From: Nitrosospira briensis C-128 | GTDB taxonomy: Bacteria; Pseudomonadota; Gammaproteobacteria; Burkholderiales; Nitrosomonadaceae | Direction: 5' to 3' | DNA: 64,000 nt | Assembly: GCF_000619905.2 (NCBI RefSeq) | Contig: NZ_CP012371.1 | Coordinates: 2,997,942 to 3,061,941 of the forward strand | Shown: positions 7,407-40,510 of the stretch, one piece after another | Layout: each line of letters opens with the position of its first letter | How positions within the stretch are numbered: the stretch's first letter is position 1 | Position numbers and translations under genes: made by a program | The notes under the pieces: generated by a model | What the model was told of the DNA's origin: nothing | The model's database searches: none | What the model saw: the letters and a program-made list of their open reading frames with translations, nothing else

Positions 7407-7730
7407 ATGAAAAAATCAAACAAGTTTTCCCCCGAGGTACGTGAGCGTGCGGTACGCATGGTGCTCGAACACCGCGGCGAGTACTCCTCCATGTGGGCGG
7501 CTATTTGAGTCGATTGCCCCCAAGATTGGGGGTGTGCCACAGACATTGAACGAATGGGTGCGCAAGCACGAGGTCGAGACCGGCATGCGCGATGGGATGA
7601 CGAGCGCTGAACGAGAGCGGGTAAAGCGCTAGAGCGCGAAGTTCGAGAACTGCGCAAAGCCAACGAGATATTGAAACTGGCCAGCGCGTTTTTTGCCCAG
7701 GCGGAGCTCAACCACCGATTCAAGTCTTGA
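7407..7730 (+). pseudogene. IS3-family orfA (HTH transposase subunit), frameshifted
   Basis: Begins [19 protein letters not shown] and continues as a typical helix-turn-helix and leucine-zipper OrfA ([19 protein letters not shown], then [24 protein letters not shown]). An extra T near 7503 brings in a stop after WAAI, and a missing base near 7627 causes a second shift. The three frames together rebuild the whole protein. Confidence 0.85.
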
Positions 7731-8624
7731 GAGCCTTCATTGATGCGCATCGGGATACCTACGGGGTCGAGCCGATTTGCAAGGTGTTGCAGATTGCCCC
7801 GTCAGGCTACCGGCGCTACGCTGCGCAGCAAAGGAATCCAGAATTGCGTTGCGCACGTGTCAAGCGTGATGACATGCTGATGCCGGAAATTCAACGTGTT
7901 TGGCAGGCCAGTATGCGAGTCTATGGCGCGGATAAAGTCTGGCATCAGCTCAATCGTGAGCATGAGCGCGTGGCACGTTGTACGGTTGAACGCTTGATGC
8001 GGCGCATGGGGCTGCAAGGCGTACAACGGGGTAAAACCGTACGCACCACGATTCCTGACACATCGGTCCCATGCCCGCTGGACAAGGTCAATCGGCAATT
8101 CAAGGCGAAACACCCAAATTAGCTATGGGTTTCGGACTTTACCCATGTTTCGACTTGGCAAGGCTGGTTGTACGTGGCCTTCGTCATTGACGTATTTGCC
8201 CGGCGTATCGCAGGTTGGCGCGTGAGCAGTTCCATGCAGACGGGCTTTGTACTCGATGCACTGGAGCAGGCGTTCCATGCTCGCCAGCCAAAGCTCTCCG
8301 ATGGCTTGATCCACCACAGCGATAGAGGCTCCCGGTATGTATACCGAGCGTCTAGCCGAAGCAGGCATTGAACCCTCGGTGGGCAGCCGGGGAGACAGTT
8401 ACGACAACGCCTTGGCTGAAACGATCAATGGCCTGTACAAAGCCGAATTGATACACCGACGTGCGCCCTGGAAGACAAAGGCAGCGGTGGAACTGACCAC
8501 CCTGGAATGGGTATCGTGGTTCAACCATCAACGTCTGCTCGAACCCATCGGTTATATTCCACCGGCTGAGGCCGAGGAATATTATTATCGACAGCAGGCA
8601 GAAAAGGCCACGGTAAAGGTCTAA
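7727..8624 (+). pseudogene. IS3-family orfB (DDE transposase), broken
   Basis: Reads RAFIDAHRDTYGVEPICKV, an HTH_21 region, then a stop at 8120-8122 where homologs have Glu or Gln before LWVSDFT. The integrase core follows (DFTHVSTWQGWLYVAFVID, HHSDRGS) and is interrupted by a frameshift near 8335 before GIEPSVGSRGDSYDNALAE. The catalytic D, D and E blocks are all present but in separate frames. Confidence 0.87.
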
Positions 8625-30351: not shown

Positions 30352-31170
30352 ATGTTAACGACAACATGGCAAGACCTCCTGAACCCGGGAGGAGCGACTG
30401 ACTTCTTTTCTCGCAGGGAATTCCCACCATTCGAACCAGAGGCAGCCCATGAGTACAGTCGCGCCAATGCGCTGTGGCTCGCGGAGCTCAGCCGATTGAT
30501 TTATCGACAAGATATCGAGGAAGTGATAACGGCTCCGCGGCCGACCCGAGCTCGCTTTTTGGAAAAGGCGGGATTGAAACAGCGTGCCTTTTTTGCTTCA
30601 CCGGAAATGGATACTCACGCAATGCTCGTTGAACCCATGGTTTCACCTTCCTTTGCAATTCTGGTATTCAGAGGTACCGATAGCAACAGGGATTATGTTA
30701 CCGACTTTGAATGTGGAATACTTCCATGGGACCGAAACGAAGTAGGGATTCACAAGGGTTTTAAAAAGGCGCTTGACTCGGTGTGGGATAAGATTGAGAA
30801 GGAGCTCTCCCCGCTTGTCTGCCCGATCTTCTATACGGGTCATAGTTTAGGCGGAGCGCTAGCCACTTTAGCGGCATCGCGATATAAACCGCGGGCGGTT
30901 TATACATTTGGATCACCGCGGGTGGGAAACGAAGCATTTGTTACGTCCCTGCAAACACTACCAATCCATCGCGTTGTTGACAATAAAGATGCAGCAGCGC
31001 TGCTTCCGCCTGAAGTATTGGGATTTCGCCATGTTGGTTTATTACAATTGCTTATGGAGCCACAAACCGAAGCCAAAGAAAACTCCTTTTTTGCACCGCT
31101 AAAGGTCTTTGGAGAACCCCCAAGGCCATTGGCAGATCATGCACCGGTTAATTATGTCGACAGAATATGA
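30352..31170 (+). CDS. Lipase class 3 family protein
   Basis: 272 residues. TGHSLGGALATLAA carries the nucleophile serine of the alpha/beta-hydrolase fold, preceded by the FRGTD strand. Aspartate in RVVDNKDA and histidine in LADHAPVNYV are the likely triad partners. No signal peptide, so probably cytoplasmic or unusually secreted. Acts on lipid esters by family; substrate unknown. Confidence 0.85.
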   Translation: MLTTTWQDLLNPGGATDFFSRREFPPFEPEAAHEYSRANALWLAELSRLIYRQDIEEVITAPRPTRARFLEKAGLKQRAFFASPEMDTHAMLVEPMVSPSFAILVFRGTDSNRDYVTDFECGILPWDRNEVGIHKGFKKALDSVWDKIEKELSPLVCPIFYTGHSLGGALATLAASRYKPRAVYTFGSPRVGNEAFVTSLQTLPIHRVVDNKDAAALLPPEVLGFRHVGLLQLLMEPQTEAKENSFFAPLKVFGEPPRPLADHAPVNYVDRI

Positions 31171-31242
31171 ATTTTCCCTGAAAAAACGTTCAGTAGTAGC
31201 ACCTGTTTTTGTAAAAACCCTGGTTTCCAAACAGGTTGGATG

Positions 31243-31300
31243 ACTTACCACCGGCAATACTGATGCGCTTGGCGAACATGGCAAGATAGAATAGCCAAGG
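31243..31300 (+). pseudogene. Ghost 3' end of a second flavin-oxidase copy
   Basis: TTGNTDALGEHGKIE and a stop at the same place as in 29146-29644, with the downstream sequence (ATAGCCAAGGATGGGGTGAA) also shared to about 31327. Nothing upstream of 31243 resembles the gene. It is the leftover of a duplication or of a lost paralog. Confidence 0.8.
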
Positions 31301-31384
31301 ATGGGGTGAAATGCAGCACAACTAATACAGACGGATGTCCATGGGGCTTATCATGCAACCGCTAGTCAATTTAGGGCATCCTAG

Positions 31385-31403
31385 GTATGATGTATAGTCA
31401 TAC
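31385..31403 (+). promoter_or_regulatory. Candidate operator of the MazEF-like pair
   Basis: GTATGA-N7-TCATAC, 18 bp before the antitoxin ATG. Position and symmetry fit autoregulation by a ribbon-helix-helix antitoxin. Inference from sequence only. Confidence 0.55.
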
Positions 31404-31420
31404 TAAAGAGTGATGATGCC

Positions 31421-31663
31421 ATGAGTAAAGCAAAAATAGCGATTACCCTTGAAGAAGAAACCCTGGAAAAGGTCGACCGCCTCGTTGGGTTGCACGTTTT
31501 TCCGAACCGGAGCCGCGTTATTCAGGAAGCAGTTGAGGAAAAACTTGAACGCCTTGAGAAGAATCGCTTGGCGACGGAGTGTGCCAAGCTGGACCCAGCC
31601 TTCGAGCGGATGCTTGCTGAGGAAGGTTTGTCCGAGGATCTGGCGGCATGGCCAGAATATTAA
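31421..31663 (+). CDS. Ribbon-helix-helix antitoxin (CopG/MazE type)
   Basis: 80 residues. The N-terminus [19 protein letters not shown] and the [17 protein letters not shown] helix form the ribbon-helix-helix fold that binds DNA as a dimer. The acidic C-terminal tail ([14 protein letters not shown]) is the expected toxin-binding arm. It overlaps the toxin gene by 16 bases, as in translationally coupled TA pairs. A palindrome sits upstream at 31385. Confidence 0.88.
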
Positions 31664-31986
31664 GAGGCGAGATCCGCTGGGCTGATCTAAATCCGGTGCG
31701 AGGCCGGGAACAAGCAGGGCTAAGGCCCGTTCTTGTTCTTAGTCAGGATGTTTTCAATGAACGTTCAGGTACCGTTATTGCTATGGCGCTTACCACTCAG
31801 GCTCAGCGAGCGGGATTTCCGCTAACCTTTGAGCTGCACGACATTGAGGTTGGAAAGCGTTCGTGGGTCAAGATCAGCCAGATCAGGACACTTGCGGTGG
31901 AACGCGTCGGAAAGAAAATAGGTAAAGCGTCTCCTGAGCAACTTTTGCAGATAGTTGAGGGGCTGAACGAAATTATAGGGGCATGA
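31648..31986 (+). CDS. MazF/PemK-family toxin
   Basis: 112 residues. [17 protein letters not shown] and [14 protein letters not shown] are the classic MazF start, followed by [18 protein letters not shown] and [16 protein letters not shown]. By family it is an endoribonuclease that cleaves mRNA at short motifs unless held by the antitoxin just upstream. The frame is intact. Confidence 0.9.
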
Positions 31987-32285
31987 CACAGCGGCGATGT
32001 GCTGGGTGTCTGAGCTTCTGGACTTCTCGGGAATAATCCTTGCGCTCTACGGTGTAGATTCCTGCACATTGTCCACGAAGAGGTACTTCAAAGTATATCG
32101 AGTATTAGCTTTGGCGAATCAGCAGGCGCCAATAATCCGGTAAGTCGGATGAAGTCCGCGCGGGTCAAGGCTGGGAGATCCGTGTCGCTGACGGGTGAGA
32201 TCAGCCACCGGCGCTCCGCATCAATTTGGGTAGGAATATCGCTGTGTGGTGCCACAAATAATGTGACCCGATCAGCTAAAACCGC

Positions 32286-32761
32286 TTGCCACAAGATCGA
32301 GCTGTCAATTGCTCGCTCCTCAAAAGCGATACGCACACGCTTGTGCTGCCCGCGATCTCGGCTTCTGATGTCGTGCGTCGTGCTCTGGCAGACTCTGATA
32401 ACTTGCTTGCCACTTCAGGAGCACCAAGTGCGATCGACAGGCTTCACACGGCCATGCCGGATACTTGAAGTCCGTTTGCAAGGAAAGTGCGATATCGCTC
32501 GCCGATGACGCAACTCTTACGCAGGCATATAAGGCCCTTCGTATCCAACATCCAGCACTGCAATCATTGGGCGAGCATGACGGCGAGATAGGAAGAATTT
32601 TGGCATCATTTGCTTCTGTTCTCGATGCGCTCAATACCCTTCGCAACCATGGGAGCGTTGCCCATCCTAACGAGAATATCGTCGGGCTTGCTGAGGGTGC
32701 ATTGGTGGTTAATGCCGTCCGAACGATCTTCCACTATCTGAGCCAGAAGATTCGTTCATAA
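32286..32761 (+). pseudogene. Abi_C-domain (abortive infection) gene, frameshifted
   Basis: Two frames join into one product. 32286-32467 reads LPAISASDVVRRALADSDN then APSAIDRLHTAM, and 32465-32761 continues GYLKSVCKESAISLADDAT to TLRNHGSVAHPNE and ALVVNAVRTIFHYL. The later part is the C-terminal abortive-infection domain (Abi_C). A one-base deletion near 32462 breaks it. The start is uncertain and the 5' end may be lost. It lies between the TA pair and the split Gabija-like locus. Confidence 0.75.
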
Positions 32762-32881
32762 GTGTGGGCGTGTAGGTTTGCATACTAATGCCGCCCAGAT
32801 CTCGTATCACGGCTTGCTCGCAGTAAAAGTCTGAACGCGGCGGCGGCCATTTCCTTGCGCAATCATTCGAGCGGGAATCAC

Positions 32882-33103
32882 TTAGGCTGCCACGAAGACG
32901 GCCCCAGTGTGGATTGCCTCATCTTCAAAAAGATCAAGCTGACGCAGGTGCGCCTCTGCCTGCTCAGGATCGGCCGTGAAGAGAACGACCGCTAGGTCTT
33001 TCAAGGCCCTCGTGCAGCTCACATAGAAAAGACGGCGCGTTCGATCCACAGTTGTTTCCTCGCCAGCATCAATGTGTTTTCGGTCGCTATCTGAGAGTTC
33101 TTC
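32882..33103 (-). pseudogene. 3' fragment of the UvrD-like (GajB-type) helicase
   Basis: Reads EELSDSDRKHIDAGEETTV then DRTRRLFYVSCTRALKDLAV and ends VFVAA-stop at 32882. The VDRTRRLFYVSCTRA block is helicase motif VI, missing from the helicase body at 35224-36975 on the other strand. Joined at the AAGAACT core, this adds 70 residues in frame to the body. Upstream of the core on this strand there is unrelated reading frame, so the fragment has no start of its own. Confidence 0.88.
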
Positions 33104-35231
33104 GTGCTGGAAAACTTTCGATGAAGCTGAGAATGTCAATCTGGCCGACCCGATTCCCGAGGGTTTCTCACTTCCAAGCATAGACCTTGATCTCTGGTTC
33201 GAGGTTGCAGCGCCAGACCTCTATCTAGTAATTCCCTTGCTTCCGAGCACGGCATGGGAGGGAACCAAGGTCGGTATACGAGTTTCGCTGACCGCTCGAA
33301 GCTCCATTAGCCTCATTCAAAACTACCAAGAAGCTAAGGCCAAAGGTACTGGACAGGCTGCGGAACTGCCGCCAGAGTCGCAATATGTTCCCTGGCCTCG
33401 CTCCATGACGGACTATCTCCAGCGCGAGTTCAAGAACGAATATGAGCTGCGCTACTTCATCTTGGACCGCACGCAATTCGATGAAAACTTCCGCGAAATC
33501 GGCGCCTATGTTCCAGATGAGCTAGGTGGAGAGCCAGGCGGCGGAACAATTCTAAAATCGCTTATCCATATCGACAACCTGGGGGCGCAGCGACACCTTG
33601 CTGATCCTAATCCGGAAGCTGGTAGTAGATCGGAAGACCTATCAAAGCGTTTAAGCCGTTTCTACAAGCGCAACCTTAATCAGAGGCAAGACGATCACAC
33701 AGCACTTAGGGCGCTGTTCGACTCTGAGCAAGCGCTTAACATTCACTTAGATGGGGTATTCAAGCCGACGCTTGATCGGCTTGCCAAACTTGGCTATCCG
33801 GGCATTAATAACCCGCGATTGAAGATTATGTCGGCGCTAGACCCAGCCCACGTCATGAGCCAGGACGCGCGAGTCCACTATCAGATCGGAGATGGTGAAG
33901 ATACTGCCACCCTTCCTGACAGTTATAACGGGCTTGGATTCAAAAATTTGATCTACATGGTCGTGGAGATTCTCGACGCCCAAGTTAGGTGGGCGTCGAT
34001 GGACAATCGCCCTCCATTGCACCTGATTTTCGTGGAGGAACCAGAGGCCCATCTACACGCCCAACTCCAACAGGTCTTCATCCGAAATGTTCTTGAGCTT
34101 CTGAACATAGAGGGCGACGACGGAAGTATTTTTGGCAGTCAGATGGTCATCACGACCCACTCGCCGCACATTCTTTACGAGCGAGGTTTCAAGCCGATTC
34201 GCTACTTCCGACGCAAGAAAGTCGGCAAGGAACAGTTGACAGAAGTTCTAAATCTGTCGGCGTTCTACCAAGCTCAGCCAGGCGATCGTGATTTTCTAGA
34301 ACGATACTTAAAACTGACTCACTGCGATCTATTTTTCTCAGATGCCGCTATTCTCGTTGAAGGCAATGTTGAGAGACTGCTCCTGCCCGTCATGATTCGG
34401 AAGGTCGCGAAGACTCTCCGATCAGCTTGTCTATGCATTTTGGAGGTCGGCGGTGCTTTTGGGCACCGCTTCCAGTCGCTTATCGAGTTTCTCGGTCTGA
34501 CAACGCTGATCATCACCGATATTGATAGCGTCGCCCTTGTAGCTCCGGCGGCCGCCGATGCCGTGGATGACGAGGAAGTCGAGGAGTTCGAGGTTCCAGC
34601 CGACGCGGAAGAAAACGTCGCAGTGCAGGCCCCGGACAATGGTCAAGATCCAGTCGGTGAGCCAGTTGCCCCAGCGCCTAAGAAGAAATACGGCAAGGCT
34701 TGTTTGCCCAGTGAACCGGACGCTGCGACCTCGAATCAAACCCTCATCAAATGGCTTCCGGGGAAGCTCACAATCGAAGACTTGCGTAACGCCTCTGAAG
34801 CTGACAAAACTCATGTGCTCGAAGACGATGCAAAGGTTCGTGTGGCCTATCAGACTGAGCGGGCTATCACTTGGAATGGAGCCACTGAAACCCTCTGCGG
34901 GCGCACGCTAGAGGAGGATTTTGGCCTTGAAAACCCGGAGTGGTCCCAAGCCACGGCGAGGAAGCCTCTGGGCTTGATAGTAAAGGGTGGAGCCGCTGGT
35001 CCTGCCGCTCTTGCCAAAGGCCTTCATGAGAAGGTTTCGCGGAAGAGTTTCGATAAAACGAAGTTTGCGCTCGCCGTCCTTACTGAAGACGAGAATGCTT
35101 GGCATGTACCTGCCTACATCCGTGATGGGCTTTTCTGGCTGAAGGACGAAGTACGGATCGAACTTGAGACCGTGCTGCCCGACGCCGTTCTCATCGCCGA
35201 AGATGTCGCGATTGGAGGCGAGCATGAGTAG
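33096..35231 (+). pseudogene. OLD-family ATPase/TOPRIM nuclease (GajA-type) body, 5' end detached
   Basis: The plus-strand frame (open from 33072) encodes the protein from SSCWKTFDEAENVNL on. It has the Walker B block LIFVEEPEAHLHAQLQ, the switch histidine ITTHSPHILYE, then the TOPRIM nuclease with ILVEGNVERLLLP and LIITDIDSVALV. It lacks Walker A, which lies in the minus-strand fragment at 36966-37142. OLD class 2 nucleases next to a UvrD-type helicase are the Gabija anti-phage arrangement by family knowledge; length (770 when rejoined) is larger than the Bacillus prototype, so a variant is likely. It overlaps the helicase start by 8 bases. Not functional in this orientation. Confidence 0.87.
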
Positions 35232-36965
35232 CCGGGCGAATAAGCCGGACACACAGGCCGACATCGACCTGCGAAACTGCCTTGGAAACGTTCCACCACG
35301 CAGCTTCATAATGAAGGCCGGTGCCGGTTCCGGAAAAACCACTTCTCTCATTAAGGGCCTGTCATCGGTCATCCGAATGCACGGAGATAAGCTTAGGAAG
35401 ACCCGTCAGCGCGTTGCCTGCATTACCTACACAGAGATTGCAGCCGGAGAGATTTGGAGGGACGTCGGCAGTGACCCCCTAGTTCACGTCTCGACGATCC
35501 ACAGCTTCATGTGGCTGCTAGCTAAGCCGTTCCAGAACGACATTCGCGTCTGGGTGTCTGGACGCATCGTGGAAAAAATTGAGGCACTTGAAGAAAAGCA
35601 GGCAGCCTATGGCCCCAGGGTTCAGCAGCGCACGAAGGATAAGGACACCCGAGACCTAGAGCGCCTCCGTCGGCAGTCGGGGCGGATCGCCGCAGTCAAA
35701 GGTTTCCGATACGGAACAGGTAGCAACTACGCAAAAGGAATTCTGGGTCACGATGACATTCTGAAGCTCGTGCCCCACTTCATTGCCGAACGCCCTCTCT
35801 TCCGAACCCTTCTCGCGCGCCAGTTCCCGTTCGTATTTGTGGACGAAAGCCAAGACACGACTACAGAGGTCGTGGAAGCTTTGAAGACCGTCGAGCGTGA
35901 ACCCGGCGTTACGCTTTGTCTCGGCTTCTTTGGCGATCCGATGCAAAGAATTTACGCTACTGGGACTGGACAGGCTGAAGCGCAGCCCACTTGGGCCGAC
36001 ATTCCGAAACCTGAAAATTTTCGGTGCTCAACCAGGATTCTGAATCTCGCGAACGCGATTCGTCGTGATGGCGATGACCTCGTTCAAACCCCGGGCCAAC
36101 GTCTAGGTCCTGATGGCATCGTTCCAACCCCTGAAGGTTCGGCCCACCTTTTCATTTTGCCTGCGGACGATACGCGGGACTCCAATCTGGTTAGGGTGCG
36201 CGAATGGATGGCGACACGAACCGGTGATGATCATTGGCAAGCAGGTGATGATGACCAAGAGCGGGTAAAGCTTCTCGTCATTGTTCACCAGATGGCCGCA
36301 AGGCGCTTAGGATTCGGAGACCTCTACGCTGCGCTCAACTCCAAGGCGCCGTCAGCGTTCAAAGATGGTTTTTTAGATGGCTCTGCGTGGCCTATTTCGC
36401 CGTGTGTAAAGTTTTTGATCCCGATCGCTATTGCTCACACCCATGGCCGACAGCTTGAAGTGATGCGACTGATCCGGGAGTATTCACTTCTTCTCGATAA
36501 AGACTCCCTTGTCGAGGTGAGCGTAGCTGAGCGTCTTAAGGCACTTGGAGATCTTGTTGCTTCGATCGCAGCAGGCATAGTGGGGAATTCCGGCGTAACG
36601 ATCGGCGACCTTCTGAGACAGGTGCATGCCTCTGACTTACTGATCCTCGACCCTCGGCTGGTATCGTATTTGGATCCGAATGCAGCTGTGCCTGTGCAGC
36701 CCGAGCCCGAAGAAGGAGCGGAAAATGATGACGACGTTCAAGAAGACGATGAATCCGGCAAGGAGTTGGCTTCAATGGATGCTTTTCTAGCGTGCCCTGC
36801 TAGCCAACTATTGGCATACCAGACCTACATCTCGGAACGTTCACCTTTTTGGACTCAGCAAGGCATCAAAGGGGCCGAGTTCGATAGGGTACTTGTCGTC
36901 CTGGACGATGCCGAAAGTACCCACTTCCAGTTCTCCTACGAAAAATACCTCGGCCTTAAAGAACT
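33096..36965. other. Inverted 3.87-kb segment cutting both genes of a Gabija-like locus
   Basis: Bounded by AGTTCTT (33096-33102) and its inverse AAGAACT (36959-36965). Left of it is the minus-strand helicase 3' end; right of it is the minus-strand ATPase 5' end; inside, both gene bodies read on the plus strand. Flipping the segment makes ATPase 59 + 711 = 770 codons and helicase 581 + 70 = 651 codons, both in frame with no base lost. No longer inverted repeat is evident, apart from a weak GTCNCTAT similarity beside each core. No invertase gene is visible. Confidence 0.85.
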
Positions 36966-36975
36966 GAAATCATAG
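35224..36975 (+). pseudogene. UvrD-like helicase (GajB-type) body, 3' end detached
   Basis: Start set at the ATG at 35224, overlapping the ATPase stop (ATGAGTAG). Superfamily 1 motifs are present in order: motif I AGAGSGKTTSL, motif II FVDESQDTTTE, motif III FFGDPMQRIYATG, then motif V QGIKGAEFDRVLVVLDD. After GLKEL the frame enters KS-stop at 36975, so motif VI is missing and is found at 32882-33103 on the other strand. By family the partner acts with the ATPase/nuclease in sensing and degrading foreign or altered DNA. Not functional as it stands. Confidence 0.87.
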
Positions 36976-37142
36976 AGACTGAAACGGTCCCTTCCACCCG
37001 TGACGAACGCATGGATGGCCTGAGTTGCCGACGTTTTTCCACTGTTATTCGATCCTACGAATATTGATATGTCGTCAGCCAGCTCAATATGAGCATCCTT
37101 CAAGCGTCGAAAGTTTCTGAGGCGATACGAGTGAAGATGCAC
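36936..37142 (-). pseudogene. 5' fragment of the OLD-family ATPase (GajA-type), with native start
   Basis: From GTG at 37142 with GGAGG 6 bases upstream: HLHSYRLRNFRRLKDAHIEL, then FVGSNNSGKTSATQAI with Walker A. It matches the body at codon FSS across the 7-bp core. In the current orientation it runs 9 more codons (SLRPRYFS) to a stop at 36936, giving a 68-residue stub. A possible TATAAA at about 37176 on the minus strand could be a -10 element; promoter and start lie outside the inverted segment. Confidence 0.87.
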
Positions 37143-37756
37143 GAAAATCCTCCGCTAATTTTTTAGAATTTATAAGAAGCAATATTCGCCGAAAAATGGC
37201 GGAGTGTTCGCGTCTTGCCAATATCCAACTCTAGCCAAAGCAGCTAACTCATTCATAAGAATGATAAGCGAAATACATCAGTGCGTCTCCGCTTCGCGGA
37301 CCGCGCTGCTCCAGGTTCGCTATTCGCTCATCCCTGATGGGACTGGCCTTCGCCAGCCTTCCACATCGCTAACGCCTACGGCCCAGCTTCCAGCTTCGGG
37401 CCTGCGCGCTTCGCTTGCGTGCGGTCGACACATCAAGGCGGCCGTTGCCTTGTCCAGTCGTCTCCCCTGACTTCATCACCTTGCTCGCGACTGTAGCCCG
37501 CGGCCGTGTGCCGTCAAGGCGCGCAGGGCCGTGTCCTCGCTGCGCTGCGGGCCGCACCAACCCTGCGCTTCTCTCCTTGACGGCCCCCGTCCGCGCGCTC
37601 CTGACCGTCGCGGGCGATGAACTTAGGAAAGACGGTGGCAACGAGGCCAACCGGGTTTTTCGTGCCGACCGCACCGAACAGCCGAAAGGCTGGGCTCCGA
37701 ATCTTGGAATCCGGTGCGGTTTGAACAGCAAACCCTTCTTTGTCAGGAGAAAGACC
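37143..37756. other. GC-rich leader region of plasmid/ICE type
   Basis: About 550 bp of GC-rich sequence with no supported gene. Its run into CAGGAGAAAGACCATG before the DUF932 gene resembles leaders seen on integrative elements and plasmids; that resemblance is from memory and is inference. The antisense and overlapping frames here have no known family. Confidence 0.4.
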
Positions 37757-38348
37757 ATGCAACTCGCATCCCGTTTCGCTTCCCATTCCCCGACGCTGCG
37801 CAGCGATTACCCGCTGTCCGACGACCAAATCCGCCGCGTGGCCCCGTCCATCTTCGCGGACACCCCGCATGAAAGCCGCTCCGAACGGTACGCCTACATC
37901 CCCACCGCCGCCGTGCTGGCGGAACTGCGCAAGGAAGGGTTTGAACCCTTCATGGCAGCGCAAACGCGCGTGCGGCACGACGACCGCCGCGAATACACCA
38001 AACACATGCTGCGCCTGCGCCATGCCAGCCAGATCAACGGCGCGGAAGCCAACGAAATCGTGCTGCTGAACTCCCATGACGGCACGAGCAGCTATCAGAT
38101 GCTGGCCGGGATATTCCGGTTCGTGCGGCGACACGGTGGCGGATGTGCGCGTGCCCCACAAAGGCGACGTGGCCGGACACGTTATCGAAGGCGCTTACGA
38201 AGTGTTGAGCGGCTTCGACCGGGTGAAGGAATCCCGCGATGCCATGCGCGCCATCACCTTGAACGATGGCGAATCCGAAGTGTTCGCCCGCGCCGCGCTG
38301 GCCCTCAGCAGCCCTTGCCGCTTCTTTCGCTGCTGCATCCCTAACCGC
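37757..38348 (+). pseudogene. DUF932-domain protein, frameshifted
   Basis: ATG at 37757 with AGGAGA upstream. MQLASRFASHSPTLRSDYP and RYAYIPTAAVLAELRKEGFE follow the DUF932 phage/plasmid-like family. A frameshift near 38122 moves the rest (CGDTVADVRVPHKGDVAGHV, ESRDAMRAITLNDGE) to another frame, and a further frame ends it near 38348, short of the family's usual C-terminus. By family knowledge these genes ride on plasmids and conjugative elements. Function unknown. Confidence 0.82.
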
Positions 38349-38836
38349 AAGGAGTTATCACCATGAACGCCGTTAATGGCCAACTCTGAGCGGTTGAAAG
38401 AGCTGCGCCAGCAACGCAAGGCTGATCGCGCCACGGTGGACGACACACTATGCAGCGTGGTGGCTGAGGCTACGCTCGACGCTGGTTGATAATGGTATTG
38501 AAAGATCTGTCGCTCGGCAGATCGCTCCATCCGCCGCGCCAGCAGAAGATCTGCGTTCTAACAGTAAAAGCGACGACAAGACCCATGTCGATCGACGCGA
38601 AGCCCACTCAATCATCCAGGTGAGGGAGAAGCCGACGGCAGTATCCGCGTTGCCCGCCCTGGTACGCAGAGATCCGCATTCGCAAGACTCCTATGTAGCC
38701 CTCAGCCCACAAACCCACAGTGAACTCAAGTTGCGAGAAACGCGATAAGCTATTATTTTAACTGCGCTTTTCTCATTGCGCCACAAAAATAAATACTTGA
38801 CAGCGGTCATTTTTTATTACCCCTTAATAAGGGCAA
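38349..38836. other. Intergenic region with a possible 37-codon frame
   Basis: ATG at 38376 opens a 37-residue frame (NSERLKELRQQRKADRATVD) to a TGA at 38487-38489. No ribosome-binding site stands out, and I recognise no family. The rest is degraded sequence, possibly the DUF932 tail and further element debris. Confidence 0.3.
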
Positions 38837-39895
38837 TTACCCCTTTTTTATCCATGTCGCTCCCGGACTTCGCCCCTGACGCTCGACAATGCCCTTTGCC
38901 TGCTGTTCGCGTAATACCCGCCGTACCATATCGCGGCTGACGCCCGGACAAGCCTGCTCCAGTTCGCTGATGGGAAATCCCGTAGTCGCTGCAGCCAGCC
39001 GCCCAATCCCGGCCAGCACTTGGTCCCGCTTCGCACCGCGTGGCGCCTTACCTCGCCTACACGTTCGGCAAATTCGCGATAGGCGGTTTTCAGGATCGAC
39101 AACACATAGTTGATGTAAGGCCACGGGTCGTGGCTGCCTTCGTGCCAGCCTTGAGAACTCTGCTCCAGCGTCTCATAGTATCTTTCCTTGTTCTGCTCGA
39201 CCAAGCGCTCAAGGCTGATGTAATGCCCGACCTCATAACCCAGTATGCAGCTTTGCAGCAACCACAGCAGGCGCGACATTCGGCCATTTCCGTCACGAAA
39301 TGGATGAATGCACAGGAAATCGAGATTGAATGCCGCCAGCGCTAAGAGTGAAGGCACCCAGGGCTCGTCAAGGCAACGCTGCCAGTCCGCTTACCAGTGC
39401 GGTCATCGCGACTGGCACGTCGCGCATCGGCACCGTCCGGAAGCGAACACGCTCTGTTCCGTCCGGGTAACGCTCGATAATATCGCTATCTTCATTCTTG
39501 TATTTTCCCGCGTCCCAGATTTCGCCGAGCGCCATGATGTGAAGACGCGAAATGGTTTCTTCAGAAATTGGTATGGCTACAGCGTTCCCGTATATCCACG
39601 TGAGTGCGTCCCGGTAGCCCCGCACTTCTTCCTCGTCGCGATCACGGAATAGGGGGTGTGGCGAGATGAGTACGTCGCGAACACGAGAAGGCTCAACAGA
39701 GACGCCCTCGATCCGGTTGGACGATACGGCACTTTCGATCAACGCATGTTCGCGCAGGGCTTTGAGCCGCTGCGGCGATTGACGCGTATAGAGCTCCTGC
39801 TTGCCGCGGTATTCGCCGAGATCGGAGAGGTACCAGACGGTGGTTGGATGAATGGGGTATTGACGAGTAGCGAAGAGACGCAGAGTGCTGGTCAT
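38837..39895 (-). pseudogene. Fic-family protein, two frameshifts
   Basis: Starts MTSTLRLFATRQYPIHPTT. The inhibitory/Fic N-terminal region (SSNRIEGVSVEP) is intact to about residue 173. A missing base near 39375 shifts the core, which carries the Fic motif HPFRDGNGRMSRLL. A second missing base near 39050 shifts the C-terminal winged helix (GFPISELEQACPGVSRDMV). The three frames together rebuild one protein of about 350 residues. Fic enzymes transfer AMP to proteins; this one should be inactive unless the shifts are sequencing errors. Confidence 0.85.
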
Positions 39896-40254
39896 GATTT
39901 ATCCGCAGCGATTGATTAACATACCGTAAGAAGTGGACTGTTACACTGTGTTCATCAAGCATAGGATCCTTTATATCCTTCCTATGACGCGTAAATTCGA
40001 AAAGCTGTCAGAATCAAGTAGAGTGCCTGCATTTCTTCAGAAATATATCAAGGGTCAAAAGCGACAAATTGCCCCGCATATAAATCTTATTGTATTTGCA
40101 TAGGTTATCTTATGCCATCCCCAATCCTTGCGGTGTGTAGCTTTATGATCTGGAGCGGGTCAGCGGCGGAGTCCGAAACTTATGCATTTTGACAAAAGAG
40201 GCCGGAATACTTTTCTTTGCTTGTACCAGCGTACCGGGAAAATCTTTATAGAAG
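39896..40254. other. Intergenic region before tRNA-Val
   Basis: About 360 bp, AT-rich in part. No gene, and no direct repeat of the tRNA 3' end was found that would mark an attachment site. Confidence 0.4.
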
Positions 40255-40329
40255 TGGTGGGCGGTACTGGGATCGAACCAGTGGCTTCCACCGTGTGAAG
40301 GTGGCACTCTACCGCTGAGTTAACCGCCC
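40255..40329 (-). tRNA. tRNA-Val (anticodon CAC)
   Basis: Minus-strand cloverleaf: acceptor GGGCGGT/ACCGCCC, anticodon stem CCACC/GGTGG with loop TTCACAC, T-arm GGTTCGATCCC, discriminator A and encoded CCA. It lies 180 bp before gltX, at the border of the accessory region. Confidence 0.95.
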
Positions 40330-40510
40330 ATTGGTTAACCGACAGATAACCGGTTGGGGAGGCGCAATTAGAGCATGAACCCGCGCTTTTGGTCAACGCG
40401 CTCGCGCTCGTTACAAGCCACGCAATCTCACGGCGATCGACGTAAGTCACGGCTGACCTGGTATTTCACGTAAAATAGCCGGCTTTCACCTCGTCAAAGT
40501 CTATCCCCTC

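Follow-up and report, generated by a model that had tools for sequence, protein, structure and literature searches.

A Gabija-type defence operon of Nitrosospira briensis C-128 divided by an exact inversion that looks recent and one-off

Introduction

Nitrosospira briensis C-128 is a soil ammonia oxidiser; as expected of such an organism, its genome has three matches to AMO (PF02461), all with the same score. In a stretch of 64,000 nucleotides of this genome (the whole stretch analysed, hereafter "the window", to which all positions refer), the two genes of a Gabija-like locus are each cut in two, with their parts lying on opposite strands. This raises the question of whether a known defence system has been lost here through a single inversion, or whether the locus is a reversible switch that was caught in its OFF state. 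The original prediction, made from the sequence alone, proposed an exact inversion that was either recent or reversible. In the present analysis, we examined the identity of the gene pieces, their arrangement in related genomes, the decay of the restored reading frames and the possible signs of a programmed switch.

Results

Identity of the gene pieces

The best PADLOC models for all four gene pieces (Table 1) were GajA or GajB, and the pieces cover complementary stretches of a single GajA profile and a single GajB profile. In the PADLOC profile search, the minus-strand piece at 36966-37142 matches positions 1-58 of the GajA profile PDLC00095, and the plus-strand body at 33096-35228 matches positions 59-749 of the same profile. 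Similarly, the plus-strand helicase body at 35224-36963 matches positions 1-564 of the GajB profile PDLC00143, and the minus-strand C-terminal piece at 32885-33094 matches positions 567-630. The Pfam matches above the cut-off were AAA_15 (gajA 5' piece and body), OLD-like_TOPRIM (gajA body) and UvrD-helicase (gajB body), the C-terminal gajB piece on its own being under the Pfam cut-offs. By motif inspection, the sequence GSNNSGKT, which we take to be Walker A, was located in the N-terminal gajA piece, and RLFYVSCTRA, presumably a motif VI-like sequence, in the C-terminal gajB piece.

An ABC-type ATPase with an OLD-like TOPRIM, as expected of GajA, is thus present as two complementary pieces, and a UvrD-like helicase (PDLC00143, Pfam UvrD-helicase) is found directly 3' of gajA. 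Both genes are cut, at 33096-33102 and 36959-36965, and the locus is therefore regarded as a probably disabled copy of Gabija. The pairing claimed in the original prediction is supported by the PADLOC profiles and, additionally, by weak matches to the solved GajA and GajB chains (E values of about 4e-5 and 3e-4), so that the C-128 locus is distantly related to the Gabija whose structure has been studied.

Table 1. Features of the divided Gabija locus and its surroundings, in positions of the window.
Feature	Position	Strand	Description
gajA 5' piece	36966-37142	minus	GTG start at 37142, GGAGG before the start, 59 codons, presumed Walker A; outside the inverted segment
gajA body	33096-35231	plus	711 codons and stop; rest of ABC-type ATPase and OLD-like TOPRIM; inside the inverted segment
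gajB body	35224-36965	plus	UvrD-type helicase without its C-terminal end, 580 codons; overlaps the gajA stop; inside the inverted segment
gajB 3' piece	32882-33094	minus	70 codons and stop; RLFYVSCTRA, presumably like motif VI; outside the inverted segment
Inverted segment	33096-36965		3,870 bp with the two cores counted in; the break may lie at any position of the cores; sense to L016, both flanks antisense
Left 7-bp core AGTTCTT	33096-33102	plus	Exact
Right 7-bp core AAGAACT	36959-36965	plus	Inverted copy of the left core, exact
Island carrying the locus	31178-40254		About 9.1 kb; missing at this place in sister genome G009; ends at tRNA-Val (40255-40329)
CopG-like and PemK/MazF-type pair, then short Abi_C-domain protein	31421-32758	plus	Pfam; beside the Gabija locus
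DUF932 gene in two frames	37415-38366	plus	Profile 1-97 and 95-159; as if frameshifted
Fic-like gene, two overlapping frames	38848-39895	minus	Fic above cut-off, Fic_N weak; as if frameshifted

Anatomy of the inversion

When the segment 33096-36965 was flipped in silico, open frames of 770 codons (ATPase, from the GTG at 37142 on the minus strand) and 651 codons (helicase, ending at 32882) were obtained with no base lost, which confirms that the inversion is exact and that both frames can be restored. The 7-bp core said to be shared by the breakpoints in inverted orientation proved to be exact at both of them. As 687 inverted 7-mer pairs occur within 32882-37142, an inverted match of 7 bp needs no special origin; what is beyond chance is that the two cores sit where both genes are cut and where the alignment to the uninverted relative L016 (see below) breaks on either side. 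The 75 bp ahead of the gajA start, which include the GGAGG sequence, differ by one base from those of L016. A promoter left outside the segment, as had been predicted, was not borne out: on the minus strand, the consensus scan gave none ahead of 37142.

Uninverted relatives

The same DNA was found uninverted in Stenotrophomonas rhizophila USBA GBX 843 (L016), with shared flanks on both sides. In the nucleotide alignment, the orientation of the window relative to L016 changes twice, both times at a 7-bp core: it is antisense at 32342-33097 (93.5%), sense at 33096-36961 (88.7%) and again antisense at 36959-38307 (89.1%). The L016 operon is uninterrupted, with 770 and 648 codons. This antisense/sense/antisense pattern supports a true inversion.

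Of 149 stretches that encode relatives, the best 80 were covered in the search for further loci, and 10 of 381 plasmid records were fetched. All four pieces were present in 86 of the 92 loci fetched (a sample that includes those best 80 of 149 stretches) and were collinear in every one of the 86, with no second inverted case. In the first set, 79 of 84 loci had all four pieces, all 79 collinear, and five were without a piece, namely L026, L056, L061 and L080 through contig ends, and also L078, which is without the gajA start. In the later set, seven of eight loci had all four pieces, collinear by coordinates, and L137 was without the first one. A scan of viral_contigs gave two loci, neither of them inverted in its visible part. 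The uninverted operon, which was to be sought in other genomes, was accordingly found in L016 and in 85 further collinear loci. The possibility that the fragments come from two different loci is rejected by the same data, L016 having the whole stretch with the flanks of both sides.

It is important to mention that collinear pieces do not equal a working locus: L098 has an IS3 transposase inside gajA, and L097 is without an annotated gajA. In L098, a Klebsiella pneumoniae plasmid, the transposase is annotated at 7479-8590 within the gajA relative, and L097, the sister plasmid of the same strain, has the locus without this insertion. In L078, a Burkholderia aenigmatica contig, the sequence concerned is that upstream of 7001; the GajA match begins only at residue 84 of the body, and no N-terminal gajA piece was found on either strand despite 7 kb of upstream sequence, which suggests that this gajA is truncated or diverged.

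Island setting and origin

In the sister genome G009, the flanks of the island (Table 1) are about 670 bp apart. An attachment repeat was not seen, as no same-strand word of at least 10 bases is shared between 31100-31700 and 40150-40400. The nearest operon relatives, in the sample that includes the best 80 of 149 stretches, belong to Stenotrophomonas, Dokdonella, a Serratia symbiotica plasmid, Chitinimonas and Massilia, and the best match by E-value in 22 genomes of the same genus is 39% identical. Taken together, the absence of the island from G009, the nearest relatives outside the genus and the low identity within it point to a horizontal gain of the Gabija operon of C-128.

Age and decay

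The restored frames contain no stops in 1,420 codons. The codon work was performed with 14 chosen relatives, and changes on the C-128 branch were counted using L016 with L019, L029, both of these, or L096 as outgroup. With L019, GajA has 7 non-synonymous and 53 synonymous changes (omega 0.041), and both genes together have 59 and 198 (omega 0.093). The corresponding omega values for GajA and for both genes together were 0.053 and 0.081 with L029, 0.034 and 0.056 with L096, and 0.036 and 0.074 with L019 and L029 jointly. Among six relatives compared in pairs (15 comparisons), omega was 0.064-0.091. The upper bound of the unconstrained share of the branch is 8-12% assuming zero earlier accepted non-synonymous changes, and 3-6% with a background omega of 0.06. 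The proposed recency is thus supported, and the inversion looks recent; an old pseudogene is rejected by the open frames and the branch omega.

For GajB alone, the branch omega reaches up to 0.114 (outgroup L019). Moreover, the gajB body is mosaic: in 75-codon bins, the identity to L016 is 91-94% for GajA, 73-88% for the next seven bins (gajB, window 35224-36800), of which six are nearer to L096 or L020 than to L016, and again 92-93% for the last two bins. The age estimate is therefore weaker for GajB.

Discussion

We regard it as probable, with good confidence, that C-128 carries a horizontally acquired Gabija operon that was disabled by a one-off, recent, microhomology-mediated inversion. 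The gajA-gajB operon would have been acquired horizontally, and a single recent inversion of about 3.87 kb would have occurred between fortuitous 7-bp inverted matches, early in gajA and late in gajB. The crossover may have been mediated by microhomology, through strand switching or other illegitimate recombination, and would have been a one-off event. In their truncated form, GajA lacking Walker A and GajB lacking motif VI are predicted to be non-working; as each protein is separated from its motif, both genes are probably dead, and this anatomy supports as probable the earlier claim that the inversion disables the system. The firm parts of this account are the anatomy of the locus, its collinear arrangement in relatives and the fact that no decay is visible.

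In favour of a one-off event, spontaneous inversions ending in short inverted matches were reported in Salmonella, and they resemble the C-128 case in the short inverted homology at their endpoints. Some points count against it: the cut-off deduced for verified inversions in that report is at least 12 bp (PMC3411829), as compared to 7 bp in C-128. In addition, low decay means either a recent flip or a locus that is mostly in the uncut state, and a reversible locus that is intact for most of the time would explain the absence of decay just as well. The age estimate itself is weakened by the omega of GajB and by its mosaic body.

Phase variation of Gabija by reversible inversion between ON and OFF, with a site-specific recombinase acting at the 7-bp cores and the OFF state caught here, would agree with the zero bases lost, the two restorable frames, the lack of decay and the identity of the cores at both ends of the segment. 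As no base was lost, a second identical event could undo the inversion, but dedicated machinery for it was not found in the window (PF00239 and PF00589), in the arms or in the dyads. The search for recombinases covered these two families, which have 4 and 7 matches genome-wide and none in the 64,000-nt window; the nearest lie more than 250 kb from the locus, counted round the origin, and such integrase-family genes could act in trans. Beyond the 7 bp, the sites are alike at 1 of 13 and 3 of 13 positions, near the arithmetic expectation of 3.25. The right site has dyad symmetry at 6 of 13 positions, which is above this chance mean, but the other site has 3 of 13. The cores were counted in 75 of the 84 loci of the first set, in which the pieces end exactly at the join, leaving aside the eight later loci: the gajA core was found in four, the gajB core in one and both together in none (again a sample including the best 80 of 149 stretches), and L016, the nearest relative, has neither core. 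The inverted repeats of invertons are given as 10-40 nt in PMC11892184, whereas the C-128 locus has 7 bp; the nearby invertase gene and the conservation of the sites in relatives that invertons would lead one to expect were likewise not observed, for the two families in the window and for the core pair in the 75 loci. Recombinases of two families, arms and dyads, conserved cores and recurrence among the 86 loci were thus all examined with no positive sign of a programmed inversion, the predicted OFF state is unsupported, and we consider such a switch unlikely. A switch specific to this lineage, with 7-bp cores born by drift and operated by a trans recombinase or by frequent strand switching, so that defended and undefended cells would coexist, is also given little probability.

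An assembly error, with a true chromosome that is uninverted, appears very unlikely. The mean read length calculated from the published totals (148,206 reads, 519.8 Mbp) is about 3.5 kb, and many reads would be shorter than the span of the segment. Against an error, an overlap assembly would not be expected to be misled by a match as short as 7 bp, and the sequence contains the two reciprocal junctions, whereas a chimeric molecule would be expected to yield only one. Moreover, the assembly is a finished one, obtained from PacBio reads with HGAP at 176x and consisting of one contig, and according to its authors the genes predicted outside gaps and repeats are identical with those of an earlier Illumina assembly (PMC4964001). 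Finally, the inverted form could be imagined as a working, re-wired locus, in which a truncated GajA is made from the in-frame ATG at 33072, ahead of the gajA body, together with a truncated GajB, both bodies being open and adjacent on the plus strand. However, these products would be without Walker A and motif VI, a ribosome-binding site ahead of 33072 is not evident by eye, and the re-wired form occurs in none of the 86 loci; this reading is hardly credible.

Compared to known systems, the locus is like Gabija (GajA, an OLD-family ATPase/TOPRIM nuclease, and GajB, a UvrD-like helicase) in its profiles, gene order and the slight overlap seen in relatives, and differs by having both genes cut, longer proteins and a weak likeness to the solved GajA and GajB. 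With the operon of S. rhizophila it has common DNA at 89-94% identity and common flanks; the latter operon is uninverted and uninterrupted, and differs at the cores. Invertons share with C-128 a segment inverted between short inverted matches that turns expression of the product off, whereas in C-128 a second orientation was not observed, apart from the differences in repeats and recombinases given above. In the PinQ inversion reported from E. coli under T2 infection, DNA inversion also alters phage sensitivity by joining gene parts; there, a serine recombinase makes a chimeric adsorption-blocking protein (PMC12529663), whereas in C-128 defence genes are broken and no recombinase of the two families was found in the window. 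Our search of the open-licence part of PubMed Central found no report of a phase-variable or inverted Gabija.

We read the locus as a probable recent loss, by a single event, of a known defence system, and not as a built-in switch. It offers a clean natural case in which a defence operon was lost without deletion of any base, and which one event could in principle restore. Gene finders will list its fragments, and tools that demand full-length matches may overlook it or score it wrongly. Should the flip prove reversible, it would represent a new way to vary innate phage defence within a population.
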